From: Rhodothermus sp.
GTDB taxonomy: Bacteria; Bacteroidota; Rhodothermia; Rhodothermales; Rhodothermaceae
DNA: 64,000 nucleotides
Direction of reading: 5' to 3'
Assembly: GCA_030950375.1 (NCBI GenBank)
Contig: JAUZRN010000002.1
Coordinates: 1-64,000, forward strand
In this document: piece after piece, positions 20,406-47,256 of the stretch
How positions within the stretch are numbered: the first letter of the stretch is position 1
Layout of the letters: each line of letters opens with the position of its first letter
Program-made: the position numbers and the translations under genes
The notes under the pieces: generated by a model
Databases searched by the model: none
What the model was told of the DNA's origin: nothing
What the model saw: only the letters and a program-made list of their open reading frames with translations

Positions 20406-20777
20406 TCAGAAGGTCCGGGTTGCTTCACGCTGGAGGGCTTCATAGGCCAGACGGGCCAGGCCGCCGGCGATGTGCACGGTGCGCTCCGAAGGTTCTGTCT
20501 GCTCCAGCCGTTCTTTGATGGCCTTTGTTGAAGCCCGGAGCAGGTTTCGGGTAGCCGCCCGCGACCGTCCGAGAAAGCGGGCGATCTCATCCACCGACCG
20601 GTGGTGTTCGGCTTCCAGCACCACCGCATAGGCTGCTTCCATCAGGCTGGGCAACCAGGTCAGCCGTTTGCGCTCGATCAGACCACGTGGGCCACCTGCC
20701 AGTTCGATGGCTTTGAGAAAGACCTGAAGCGCCCGATGATCCAGGTCAACCGGTTGGGGAGGAAGCTCGACGGGCAT
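20406..20777 (-). CDS. Small helix-turn-helix protein, near-KaiC regulatory domain type
   Basis: A 123-residue protein with a helix-turn-helix at about residues 59-83 (HRSVDEIARFLGRSRAATRNLLRAS), preceded by the helical LIERKRLTWLPSLMEAAYAVV. The neighbourhood and architecture match my memory of the TIGR03879 'near_KaiC_dom' family, small putative regulators found next to single-domain KaiC proteins. Here the KaiC-like gene ends only 2 bp upstream of this ATG, so the pair is co-transcribed and very likely co-translated. DNA binding is inferred from the fold; no target operator was identified. The family call needs a profile search. Confidence 0.72.
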   Translation of the reverse strand: MPVELPPQPVDLDHRALQVFLKAIELAGGPRGLIERKRLTWLPSLMEAAYAVVLEAEHHRSVDEIARFLGRSRAATRNLLRASTKAIKERLEQTEPSERTVHIAGGLARLAYEALQREATRTF

Positions 20778-20779
20778 GG

Positions 20780-21673
20780 CTACGCCTGGTAGGTGGGTTC
20801 GACCGCTGTGGTTTGATGGAGGGCCTGCAGGCGGGGACCAACACGAACGAGGCCTGTCGACGTAATTTCCAGCAGATGGGTGCTGGTGTCATGTCCGCAC
20901 AGGCGGCAGCCGTCGATGCGGAACAGCCGGACAGTCTCACCGATGGGCACGTGGTAGAGGCGAGCCTGCTGAGGGCTGGTAATGGGTTGTTTGGCCAGTA
21001 CCAGCGTGCCGTCGAGGATATGCCCTACCGCATAGCCCCCGGCCGCTTCTGCTGTGAGCAGCTCGTGACCACTGCGCTTCTGCGAAACAAGCAGGGCCGT
21101 CTGGTGCCATTTTTTGAGAAACGTGAAGATCGGTCGCACCACGTCACGGGCCAGCATTTCGCGGGCTTCGTAGAAACCGGTGATCGCGTCGATCACTACA
21201 GCCTGTACGTGGTAGGTTTGGATGGCATGGGCCAGCGTGTTGAGCAGCGTGGGTAGGTCCCGGATCAGCACGGGGTGTGTGGCCGCGTCGATCAGCACGA
21301 TACGATCTTCCAGGGCAGACCAGTCGGCGCCCATGGCGGCCGCCCGCGTACGCAGTCCCATAGCCACAAAGGGAGCCGGGTTCTCTGTGCTCAAAAACAG
21401 GCAGGTCGAACCGCGCCGTGCCTGTTCCACAGCAAATTGCTCGACCAGTAGGCTCTTGCCGGTATCGGCCACCCCGGTTACCTGCAGGATGGCATAGCGG
21501 GGGATTCCACCCAGAGGCTTTTGTACCGGACGGCCGTTCTGCCAGACCGTTGTGAAAAACAGCGTGTCCAGGCCTTCGATACCCGTGGGGACACCTTCCA
21601 GTCCGGGGGCCGCAGCCGCCGCATGGCGCAGCGTCACCACCGCTTCTACCAGCGGTCCGGTAGATCCTGCCAT
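20780..21673 (-). CDS. Single-domain KaiC-like RecA-fold ATPase, thermophile type
   Basis: A 297-residue protein with one KaiC/RecA domain, not the two of the circadian clock protein. The core starts at GVPTGIEGLDTLFF. Walker A is GVADTGKS (67-74), Walker B is AVVIDAIT (158-165), and KRSGHELLTAEAAGGYAVGHILDGTLVL follows. A small C-terminal knuckle, FRIDGCRLCGHDTSTHLLEI, carries a CxxC pair that may bind metal. It most resembles the families I recall as thermo_KaiC (TIGR03877/03878), reported only from thermophiles. It lies between bpsA and the small HTH gene. Its ATG directly abuts the T-run of a terminator-like hairpin with no Shine-Dalgarno sequence, so its expression is unusual. Confidence 0.82.
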   Translation of the reverse strand: MAGSTGPLVEAVVTLRHAAAAAPGLEGVPTGIEGLDTLFFTTVWQNGRPVQKPLGGIPRYAILQVTGVADTGKSLLVEQFAVEQARRGSTCLFLSTENPAPFVAMGLRTRAAAMGADWSALEDRIVLIDAATHPVLIRDLPTLLNTLAHAIQTYHVQAVVIDAITGFYEAREMLARDVVRPIFTFLKKWHQTALLVSQKRSGHELLTAEAAGGYAVGHILDGTLVLAKQPITSPQQARLYHVPIGETVRLFRIDGCRLCGHDTSTHLLEITSTGLVRVGPRLQALHQTTAVEPTYQA

Positions 21674-21707
21674 AAAAAACTACCGGCTGTTTCAGACCAG
21701 CCGGTAG
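21674..21707 (-). terminator. Terminator-like hairpin abutting the KaiC-like start codon
   Basis: A perfect 10-bp inverted repeat (CTACCGGCTG at 21680-21689, CAGCCGGTAG at 21698-21707, 8-nt loop) is followed on the minus strand by six T residues (21679-21674), and the very next base begins the ATG of the KaiC-like gene. It has full terminator form for bpsA. Its position leaves no space for a ribosome site, so it could instead act as a read-through attenuator or translational block. Confidence 0.85.
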
Positions 21708-21765
21708 CTTCCAACGCTGGGCGGCACGAATCGCTTCAGTCCGTACGTAATGGTTCTGTAATACG

Positions 21766-22848
21766 TTAGGTGGTGGCTGCTTCGGCGTCGCTGAAGATGT
21801 CGCCCTCGACGGCCGTATTGTCCAGGGCCGGGGTGCGTAGGAGCTCAATGCGATGCAAGGCCGAGTAGTACCAGGCGCGTTCAGGCAAACTGTGAGTGGG
21901 CAGCCATTCCCATGAACGCATCGATTCGATGTATCCCCAGTTGACGTAGGCGCTGAAGTCGTCGATGAGATCCGTCAGTACAGCGCCATGGTCCAGCAAA
22001 AAGCGCTGAATTTGCGCCCACTTTTCGTAGCTGGACTCGACGTGCGTAAGCCCGAAATAGCCAGCTCCTCCGGGACCACGCAGCGCCAGAAGTCCGCGTT
22101 CGATCGTGGTTTTAAACCCGAGGAAGCTTTCGGTGGGATCGGTCAGGAAAGTATCGAAACGACGCAGCCACGCTGTGGGCAGAGGCTCACGCAGGTCGTA
22201 GCGAACCGCTTCAAGTCGATCAAGTCCTTCCTGTCGGGCTACTTCGTTGATAAACTGGATCAGGCGTTCGTCAATATCGATGGCCAGAATGTGAGCCGGG
22301 GCGCCGGTCAGAGCCGCCGCAATACTCATAAGGTCGTCGTCACCCAGCACAATAACCGATTTGCCTTCCAGGTCACCGCGATGCCAGGCAAAAGCGATCC
22401 GAGAAAGCGTGGTGGCATCGGTAACAAATCCCTGGTCATAGGCCTGAATCGCCTCCGGGCGGTGCCGCGCGATCTCCGCAAAGCGTTCAGCAACGCCTTC
22501 CGGAAGTGTGCGGTAATCGACGCCACGTCCTTCACAATGGCCACAGGTGGCTTCGCGTAGGGGGGCTACGCCCAGGGCCTGAGCCAGCGCCTGGCCGCTT
22601 TCGGTCAGGCGCAGGGCGCCGTCATGGGCTCTTAGCAGCCCTGCCTTGATCAGCTGGTGCCAGAAGGTGCTGAGCGCACGTAACGGTACGTGGCTTAGCC
22701 GGATGGCTTCCCATAGATTGTCGGTCGTCAGCAGAGCTGCCAGCGCACGCTCCGCATCCCGCAGGGTAAAAGGAACCGACGCCGCCTGACGCGTCTGGTC
22801 GTAAAGGTGCCGTAGGTCCTGGTAGGCTTCCTGAAACGTTAGGGACAT
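21766..22848 (-). CDS. bpsA: N(4)-bis(aminopropyl)spermidine synthase (branched polyamine synthase, DUF43)
   Basis: A 360-residue aminopropyltransferase of the DUF43/BpsA family, which adds aminopropyl groups from decarboxylated S-adenosylmethionine to spermidine to form branched polyamines that stabilise nucleic acids at high temperature. The N-terminal 95 residues form a winged-helix-like domain, followed by CGHCEGRG (102-109). The catalytic Rossmann part shows the GDDDL motif (159-163), DIDERL (181-186), YDLREPLP and DPTES (227-231). I chose the ATG at 22848, preceded by GGAG at 6-nt spacing, over an in-frame GTG 12 bp upstream. The KaiC-like and HTH genes lie downstream on the same strand. 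Confidence 0.88.
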   Translation of the reverse strand: MSLTFQEAYQDLRHLYDQTRQAASVPFTLRDAERALAALLTTDNLWEAIRLSHVPLRALSTFWHQLIKAGLLRAHDGALRLTESGQALAQALGVAPLREATCGHCEGRGVDYRTLPEGVAERFAEIARHRPEAIQAYDQGFVTDATTLSRIAFAWHRGDLEGKSVIVLGDDDLMSIAAALTGAPAHILAIDIDERLIQFINEVARQEGLDRLEAVRYDLREPLPTAWLRRFDTFLTDPTESFLGFKTTIERGLLALRGPGGAGYFGLTHVESSYEKWAQIQRFLLDHGAVLTDLIDDFSAYVNWGYIESMRSWEWLPTHSLPERAWYYSALHRIELLRTPALDNTAVEGDIFSDAEAATT

Positions 22849-23067
22849 GGGTTGCTCCACGGTTGATCACCTGCATATCGACGTAACAAGCTAAAAGAGC
22901 CACTCGCAGGATGCAACCAGTTAGGCGAATTTTGATCAAGGACCGGAAAACACCTGTGGGAAGACGGGTACCTGGCGGTGAAGCTGTTCACGTTGCAGGA
23001 AAATGCTTTTTTATTGGCTTGACTTTTTGTATTTTCAAAAAAAGTTCTAAAAAACTATACGATTCGA

Positions 23068-46167: not shown

Positions 46168-47256
46168 ATGTCGCGGGAAGTACGGGTTGGACTACTGGCG
46201 CTGGCGGGGATTACCCTGTTCGTTGTGGCACTGTTTGCCATTGCGAACCGATCCTTCCTGCTGAGCGATACGTTTTTGTTGCGCGCCCGCTTCAACCGGG
46301 TGGCGGGTCTGGTGCCCGGTGCGCCTGTTCAATTTCAGGGCGTGAACGTCGGACGCGTCGAGTCGGTGCAGCTTCCGCCAGAGCCGGGGGGACGGATTGA
46401 GGTAACCATGGCCATCAAAGAAGAAGCCCGACGCGTCATTCATTCACGCACCCAGGCACAGATCAAAAGCGAAGGACTGGTCGGGCAGCAAATCGTGGTG
46501 CTGGTCAATCCGCCGGGCGTTCAGGGCGAGCCGGTTTCAGAAGGCGACCTGATTGTGGGCGTCGATCCGTTCGACCTGTTTGAGATCACCGACCGGACAC
46601 TGGCCTCGGTGCAGCGCTTTGAGGATGCGGCCAATGCCTTCCGGCAGATTATGCTGGACGTACAGGCCGGCGAAGGAACGCTGGGCAAGCTGATCTACGA
46701 TCCCACGCTCTACAACGAGTTTGTCGCTACCACAAACGAGACGCGGCGCGTGCTGAATAACCTGGCTAACAATGCCGAGGCGCTGGTAGCACTGGCCGAG
46801 GAGGCCACGCAGGGCGTGCAATCGATCCTGGATAAGATCGATCAGGGTGAGGGGACAGTGGCCCGTATGCTGAACGACCCGGCATTGTACGAGCGATTGC
46901 TGGCTACGGCCGATACGTTGCGACAGGTGGCGTCTGACCTGCGGGCCATTACAGGTGCCGCCGAGAATGCGGCCAACTGGGGAGCGCTGGGCGCTTATCG
47001 ATTTGCCGAGCTTATGGAAGCGGCCAAGCATAACTGGCTTTTCCGCCGTTACTTTGAGGAGCGTGGCTACATGGAACGCGCTCCTTTCGAGGTGCGGGAA
47101 CGGGCCATCGAACAGGCTTATCGCCAGTTGCAGGCACGTATGCGGGAGCTGGAGGCTTGGGAACGACAATTGCAGGAACGCGAAGCACGGCTGAAAGCCC
47201 TGGAGACCCGCCTGTCGGCCCTGGCCGACTCGCTGGCCGGCACTGACGGGCATTAA
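46168..47256 (+). CDS. mlaD: MlaD-family MCE-domain protein
   Basis: A 362-residue membrane-anchored periplasmic lipid-binding protein. One N-terminal helix (VGLLALAGITLFVVALFAIA) is followed by a single MCE domain (FLLRARFNRVAGLVPGAPVQFQGVNVGRVESVQL … IKSEGLVGQQIVVLVNPPG). A long helical tail contains GEGTLGKLIYDPTLYNEF and GEGTVARMLNDPALYERL, a repeated motif common in MCE proteins, and ends in an Arg/Glu-rich coiled coil. The start at 46168 is chosen for homology and a weak AGG site 7 nt upstream. It forms a complex with MlaE and MlaF. Confidence 0.93.
   Translation: MSREVRVGLLALAGITLFVVALFAIANRSFLLSDTFLLRARFNRVAGLVPGAPVQFQGVNVGRVESVQLPPEPGGRIEVTMAIKEEARRVIHSRTQAQIKSEGLVGQQIVVLVNPPGVQGEPVSEGDLIVGVDPFDLFEITDRTLASVQRFEDAANAFRQIMLDVQAGEGTLGKLIYDPTLYNEFVATTNETRRVLNNLANNAEALVALAEEATQGVQSILDKIDQGEGTVARMLNDPALYERLLATADTLRQVASDLRAITGAAENAANWGALGAYRFAELMEAAKHNWLFRRYFEERGYMERAPFEVRERAIEQAYRQLQARMRELEAWERQLQEREARLKALETRLSALADSLAGTDGH

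Follow-up and report, generated by a model that had tools for sequence, protein, structure and literature searches.

A near-obligate gene pair of a KaiC-like ATPase and a helix-turn-helix protein, adjoined by a putative branched-polyamine synthase gene in Rhodothermus

The KaiC protein of the cyanobacterial circadian clock has two RecA domains, with an autokinase CII, and adjoins KaiA/KaiB. Another group of KaiC-like ATPases is found paired with a small helix-turn-helix (HTH) protein of the TIGR03879 family, which in our archaeal phylum sample is common to two pairs, one with a TIGR03878 KaiC and one with a TIGR03877 KaiC. The pair with TIGR03878 is already known to TIGRFAMs, its function being a matter of inference. 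The closest solved relative of the archaeal TIGR03877 KaiC is PH0284 (E-value 5.9e-116). In Pyrococcus furiosus this second pair is highly likely to be represented by PF1931/PF1932, where PF1931 is presumably a member of UPF0273. Both the KaiC-domain gene PF1931 and the predicted regulator PF1932 were found to be strongly upregulated on heat shock and to have Phr motifs (PMC10746257), and it is thus very probable that heat shock induces this type of pair in Pyrococcus. A KaiC-domain protein is also among the most abundant proteins of N. equitans (PMC3149612).

Here we analyse a pair of the TIGR03878 type (ATPase termed KaiC2) in a 64-kb stretch of DNA (the window) from a Rhodothermus genome of 3.03 Mb. 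It resembles the archaeal pair of TIGR03877 (PH0284/UPF0273) and TIGR03879 in its two-gene logic, the family of the HTH domain and the fold of the ATPase, but the window KaiC2 belongs to another KaiC family and heat-shock induction has been reported for the Pyrococcus pair only; our literature searches found no direct biochemical or expression evidence on TIGR03878 pairs and no heat-shock transcript data for the pair of Rhodothermus.

The ATPase and its HTH partner

A preliminary description of the window had placed bpsA, a KaiC-like ATPase gene and an HTH gene consecutively on the minus strand, the last of them 2 bp from the ATPase gene and 123 codons long. ORF coordinates and profile searches bear out the arrangement, the spacing and the length (Table 1). 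Comparison with TIGR03877, TIGR03878 and TIGR03879, proposed in the same description, assigned the ATPase to TIGR03878 and the HTH protein to TIGR03879, both over the cut-off. The ATPase obtained 410.1 bits with TIGR03878 (cut-off 232.2, model positions 1-258 of 259 aligned) and 43.3 bits with TIGR03877, below the cut-off of 307, and hence is not a member of the latter family; the HTH protein obtained 90.5 bits with TIGR03879 (cut-off 65.1) and, given also its position beside the KaiC gene, is a member. The observation of the trio is more than chance, because the scores are far above the curated cut-offs and neighbouring KaiC and HTH genes are found repeatedly in phyla of both bacteria and archaea. 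The window pair shares with other TIGR03878/TIGR03879 pairs of NCBIfam the scores over both cut-offs and the usual gene order, but differs from them in the short HTH protein (123 aa) and in the bpsA neighbour, which is peculiar to Rhodothermus.

Table 1. Features of the locus, in positions of the window
Feature	Position	Strand	Assignment or remark
HTH partner gene, 123 aa	20406-20777	-	short form of TIGR03879 (near_KaiC_dom)
Single-domain KaiC-like ATPase gene (KaiC2), 297 aa	20780-21673	-	TIGR03878 (thermo_KaiC_2)
Predicted intrinsic terminator	21674-21712	-	perfect stem, 8-nt loop, U6; ends at KaiC ATG
Non-coding element CGTATTAC-N6-ATTAC	21747-21765	-	between bpsA stop and terminator; kept in 6 Rhodothermus genomes
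bpsA	21766-22848, or GTG start at 22860	-	PF01861; predicted member of the N4-bis(aminopropyl)spermidine synthase family

In an alignment of 54 KaiC2 sequences the Walker A motif, the catalytic Glu and the Walker B motif are all intact, and the invariant residues are K73 of Walker A, E97 (aligned with the catalytic Glu of RecA), D162, Q198-K199-R200 and C256. Conservation is unusually high, with 53-71% identity across phyla. The AlphaFold2 model of the window KaiC2 (pLDDT 90.7) has 2dr3 (PH0284) as the top PDB match in Foldseek (E-value 1.4e-16). The strictly conserved loop SQKRSGHE...AEAAGG, which is modeled with low confidence, may be the counterpart of the DNA-binding loop L2 of RecA. The "CxxC tail" (C256-C259) noted in the preliminary description holds for its first Cys, whereas the second is Ser or Ala in several relatives and is not a feature of the family; a conserved zinc site is therefore unlikely, and we dropped this possibility. 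An assignment as a circadian clock KaiC was rejected as well: the window KaiC2 shares with that protein a RecA-type P-loop domain (Foldseek E-value about 1e-15), but it consists of a single 297-aa domain, obtained 26.4 bits with the circ_KaiC profile (cut-off 546), and is flanked by the HTH gene and bpsA, with no kaiB neighbour.

HTH proteins of this family occur in a long form of about 205-220 aa (most relatives) and a short form of 117-132 aa; the Rhodothermus protein represents the latter and lacks the extra C-terminal domain of most relatives. The long form is modeled as an all-helical protein with an HTH (pLDDT 87). Matches of family members are to HTH_23, Sigma70_r4 and ParB-HTH and are weak in most cases, and a Foldseek search of the HTH protein against solved structures gave no match with E < 1. 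The C-terminal domain of the long form (e.g. L104:10858-11508) shows weak matches to DUF2795 and to MTH865, each in 10 members of the family, and could possibly be a repeat of a small helical domain.

Distribution of the pair and its reverse gyrase and SMC neighbours

With aligned proteins from Rhodothermia and Thermomicrobium as the query, we collected 80 KaiC2 loci from many bacterial phyla and some archaea, which together with T. roseum make a set of 81. The HTH gene lies immediately downstream of KaiC2 in 59 of them, 57 at a measured distance of -14 to +33 bp and two (L071 and L085) being adjacent after trimming of HTH starts that the ORF caller had extended too far. In four loci it is found directly upstream and in four more within about 3 kb, and no HTH was found in the flanking DNA of 14, some of whose flanks end soon after KaiC. 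A genome-wide profile search identified one HTH protein over the cut-off in every one of 50 KaiC2-bearing genomes, including six in which it is encoded away from the KaiC2 locus (L061, L067, L080, L099, L107 and L109), so that the two genes are co-retained in the genome even when apart on it. The pair is thus close to obligate, and its earlier characterization as a recurring pair of thermophiles (a status taken here from organism names) stands for the TIGR03878/TIGR03879 type. Outside thermophiles it is rare: of the 198 genomes of the phylum sample, five score over the cut-off, and all five are Rhodothermia.

Clustering of all ORFs in the loci revealed no universal neighbour of KaiC2 other than the HTH gene. 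In Thermotogota and WOR-3 bins the HTH gene is directly followed by a macro-domain-like gene (L053:7744-8298, L073:5998-6552) and then by a pterin-synthase-like gene. In WOR-3/Hydrothermota and one archaeon the pair is accompanied by a 575-aa multi-HTH-like protein (L058:9645-11369, with relatives in L055, L068, L084 and L113), for which a search of NCBIfam gave no match.

Two further neighbours recur in particular lineages. Reverse gyrase is encoded directly after the HTH gene in 11 loci from Persephonella and Campylobacterota, and SMC in seven loci from Thermodesulfobacteria. The order KaiC2-HTH-reverse gyrase is codirectional in L062, L069, L071, L077, L079, L085, L110 and L122 (Persephonella and Campylobacterota), and in Persephonella a QueD/6-pyruvoyl-tetrahydropterin-synthase-like gene comes before it. 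Among 249 evenly sampled Campylobacterota, with the pair scored by its HTH marker, reverse gyrase is present in 13 genomes, among them all 10 that bear the pair; three genomes possess reverse gyrase alone, none the pair alone, and 236 neither. The association (Fisher p 1.4e-15) is not an independent test, owing to relatedness and shared thermophily. The two genes are adjacent in 6 of the 10 pair-bearing genomes. In the reverse gyrase tree the HTH-adjacent groups of Persephonella and of Campylobacterota are neighbours (support 90), hence the gene order may have a single origin followed by transfer, and two independent origins are not supported. A "reverse gyrase" located 8 kb from KaiC in Thermodesulfobacterium was also discarded, as its position and length are those of a short topoisomerase I.

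These neighbours would fit a RecA-like DNA machine acting in topology or repair rather than in signalling, with reverse gyrase and SMC as natural partners of the pair, and the conserved KaiC2 loop, if correctly placed at the L2 position, would agree with this. We regard this explanation as unlikely, although less so than the two other alternatives considered below. Reverse gyrase is missing from Rhodothermus (seven thermophilic Rhodothermia searched) and from Thermomicrobium, both of which have the pair, and was detected over the cut-off in 35 of the 50 KaiC2 genomes, so that it was rejected as a universal partner; its link with the pair is suggestive but not general. Moreover, co-occurrence is confounded by thermophily, other loci adjoin unrelated metabolic genes, and the adjacent arrangement may go back to one event. 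A more far-reaching version, which we consider quite improbable, is that in both bacteria and archaea the pair is devoted to the ATP-gated control of DNA topology at high temperature: a RecA-like ring on the DNA, with the HTH protein as its adaptor, would govern reverse gyrase and chromosome-structuring genes where these are present, while in Rhodothermus, which has no reverse gyrase, branched polyamines may fill the role.

bpsA and the interval between bpsA and KaiC2

BpsA enzymes use spermidine and decarboxylated SAM to produce branched polyamines. The window protein obtained 308.5 bits with PF01861 (BpsA_C, gathering score 27), and phmmer identified its best solved relatives as 6j28 (E-value 2.8e-111, residues 14-360) and 6j27 (E-value 3.3e-109), both N4-bis(aminopropyl)spermidine synthases. 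It also contains the GDDD motif and the acidic C-terminal tail described for Tk-BpsA (PMC12979288). In sequence, fold family and both of these features it appears to be an ordinary relative of BpsA from Thermus and Thermococcus, and we predict that it is a branched-chain polyamine synthase. The genome also possesses speD, on a different contig from bpsA.

The preliminary description proposed that the pair may serve as a sensor of temperature or energy through which bpsA is tuned, which would make the trio one functional unit in Rhodothermus. It is true that all three are thermophile genes, that the trio stays together in the R. marinus-type genomes G003 and G008 amid surroundings unlike those of the window, and that the non-coding element listed in Table 1 is almost unchanged across six Rhodothermus genomes. 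Nevertheless, we find the proposal very unlikely. The same description had named a neighbourhood restricted to the genus as the outcome that would speak against a polyamine link, and this is the distribution found among the 81 loci: the loci with bpsA close to KaiC2 are all from Rhodothermus (L043, L044 and the window; also G003, G008 and G050), and the flanks of KaiC2 loci from other genera contain no bpsA. The synteny is also separable, with bpsA about 650 kb from KaiC2 in G069, a sister lineage and the other pair-bearing member of the class, and with bpsA present without the pair in G018 and in the Rhodothermus genome G151, where the gene block around bpsA persists in the order SSS1-porin-bpsA-tdh-kbl, without KaiC, the HTH gene or the second SSS gene. 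Genome-wide, bpsA is over the cut-off in 21 of the 50 KaiC2 genomes, a lower bound because many of these genomes are incomplete bins, and the 29 with no detectable bpsA are an inflated figure for the same reason.

The interval upstream of KaiC2 points in the same direction. It contains a predicted intrinsic terminator, whose stem has a 10-bp core and reaches 15 bp if flanking A/U pairs are counted, with a predicted energy of -28 kcal/mol at 37 C and -14 kcal/mol at 65 C. In six Rhodothermus genomes its arms are conserved and its loop is variable, and only nine strong hairpins of this type, this one included, occur in the 64 kb of the window, both strands counted. It ends at the KaiC start codon. 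The bpsA transcript is thus probably terminated there, and KaiC2 would be transcribed from a start of its own or through regulated read-through; the terminator argues against co-transcription, and bpsA is probably independent of the KaiC/HTH transcript. Given this conserved terminator and the separable synteny, we consider a bpsA-KaiC-HTH operon improbable. The CGTATTAC-N6-ATTAC element is a candidate promoter or operator; the form ATTAC-N6-ATTAC occurs in the window once on the bpsA strand and once on the opposite strand. No RNA family was matched at the locus, and no CIRCE heat-shock element is present within the 64-kb window. Elsewhere in the window, ARAGORN called a selenocysteine tRNA (46255-46347) inside an MCE/MlaD-like ORF, probably a false positive.

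Hardly credible at all is a pair that is mobile, defensive or toxin-antitoxin-like and has spread by transfer. Rhodothermus KaiC2 does cluster with its counterparts from Thermomicrobium (Thermomicrobiota) and from a Thermotogae bin (support 98), suggestive of an exchange between phyla, and the T. roseum copy resides on a megaplasmid, with genes annotated as defence functions no more than 8 kb away. But the pair is strongly conserved across phyla, as noted above, is present as a single copy per genome, and matched only one plasmid record; none of 50,697 phage records matched, for which reason we rejected a mobile element.

Proposed role of the pair

On balance, we consider it rather probable that KaiC2 and the HTH protein form one unit that acts on DNA for life at high temperature, and that bpsA is a separately terminated chance neighbour. 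The best reading of the pair is an ATP-driven DNA-binding regulator of thermal stress or genome maintenance, and heat stress or genome upkeep is the better-supported link of the pair, compared with polyamines. As a RecA-fold ATPase, KaiC2 would probably form rings and change its state with ATP or temperature; it would then control, or work together with, the HTH protein, presumably through physical contact, and the HTH protein would bind DNA. The outcome would be an adjustment of the genes, or of the chromosome state, needed at high temperature. Such a pair would most likely couple the ATP or temperature state to the DNA in thermophiles, although KaiC2 could act outside transcription. bpsA would be terminated on its own and adjoin the pair in Rhodothermus by chance.

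Few thermophile proteins without an assigned function are as conserved as the KaiC-like ATPases. With bpsA removed as an explanation, the heat-shock and reverse gyrase leads, both of them new relative to the first reading of this locus, offer a concrete test of the role of the near-KaiC pair; as reverse gyrase occurs in Campylobacterota genomes both with and without the pair, the question is directly testable there.
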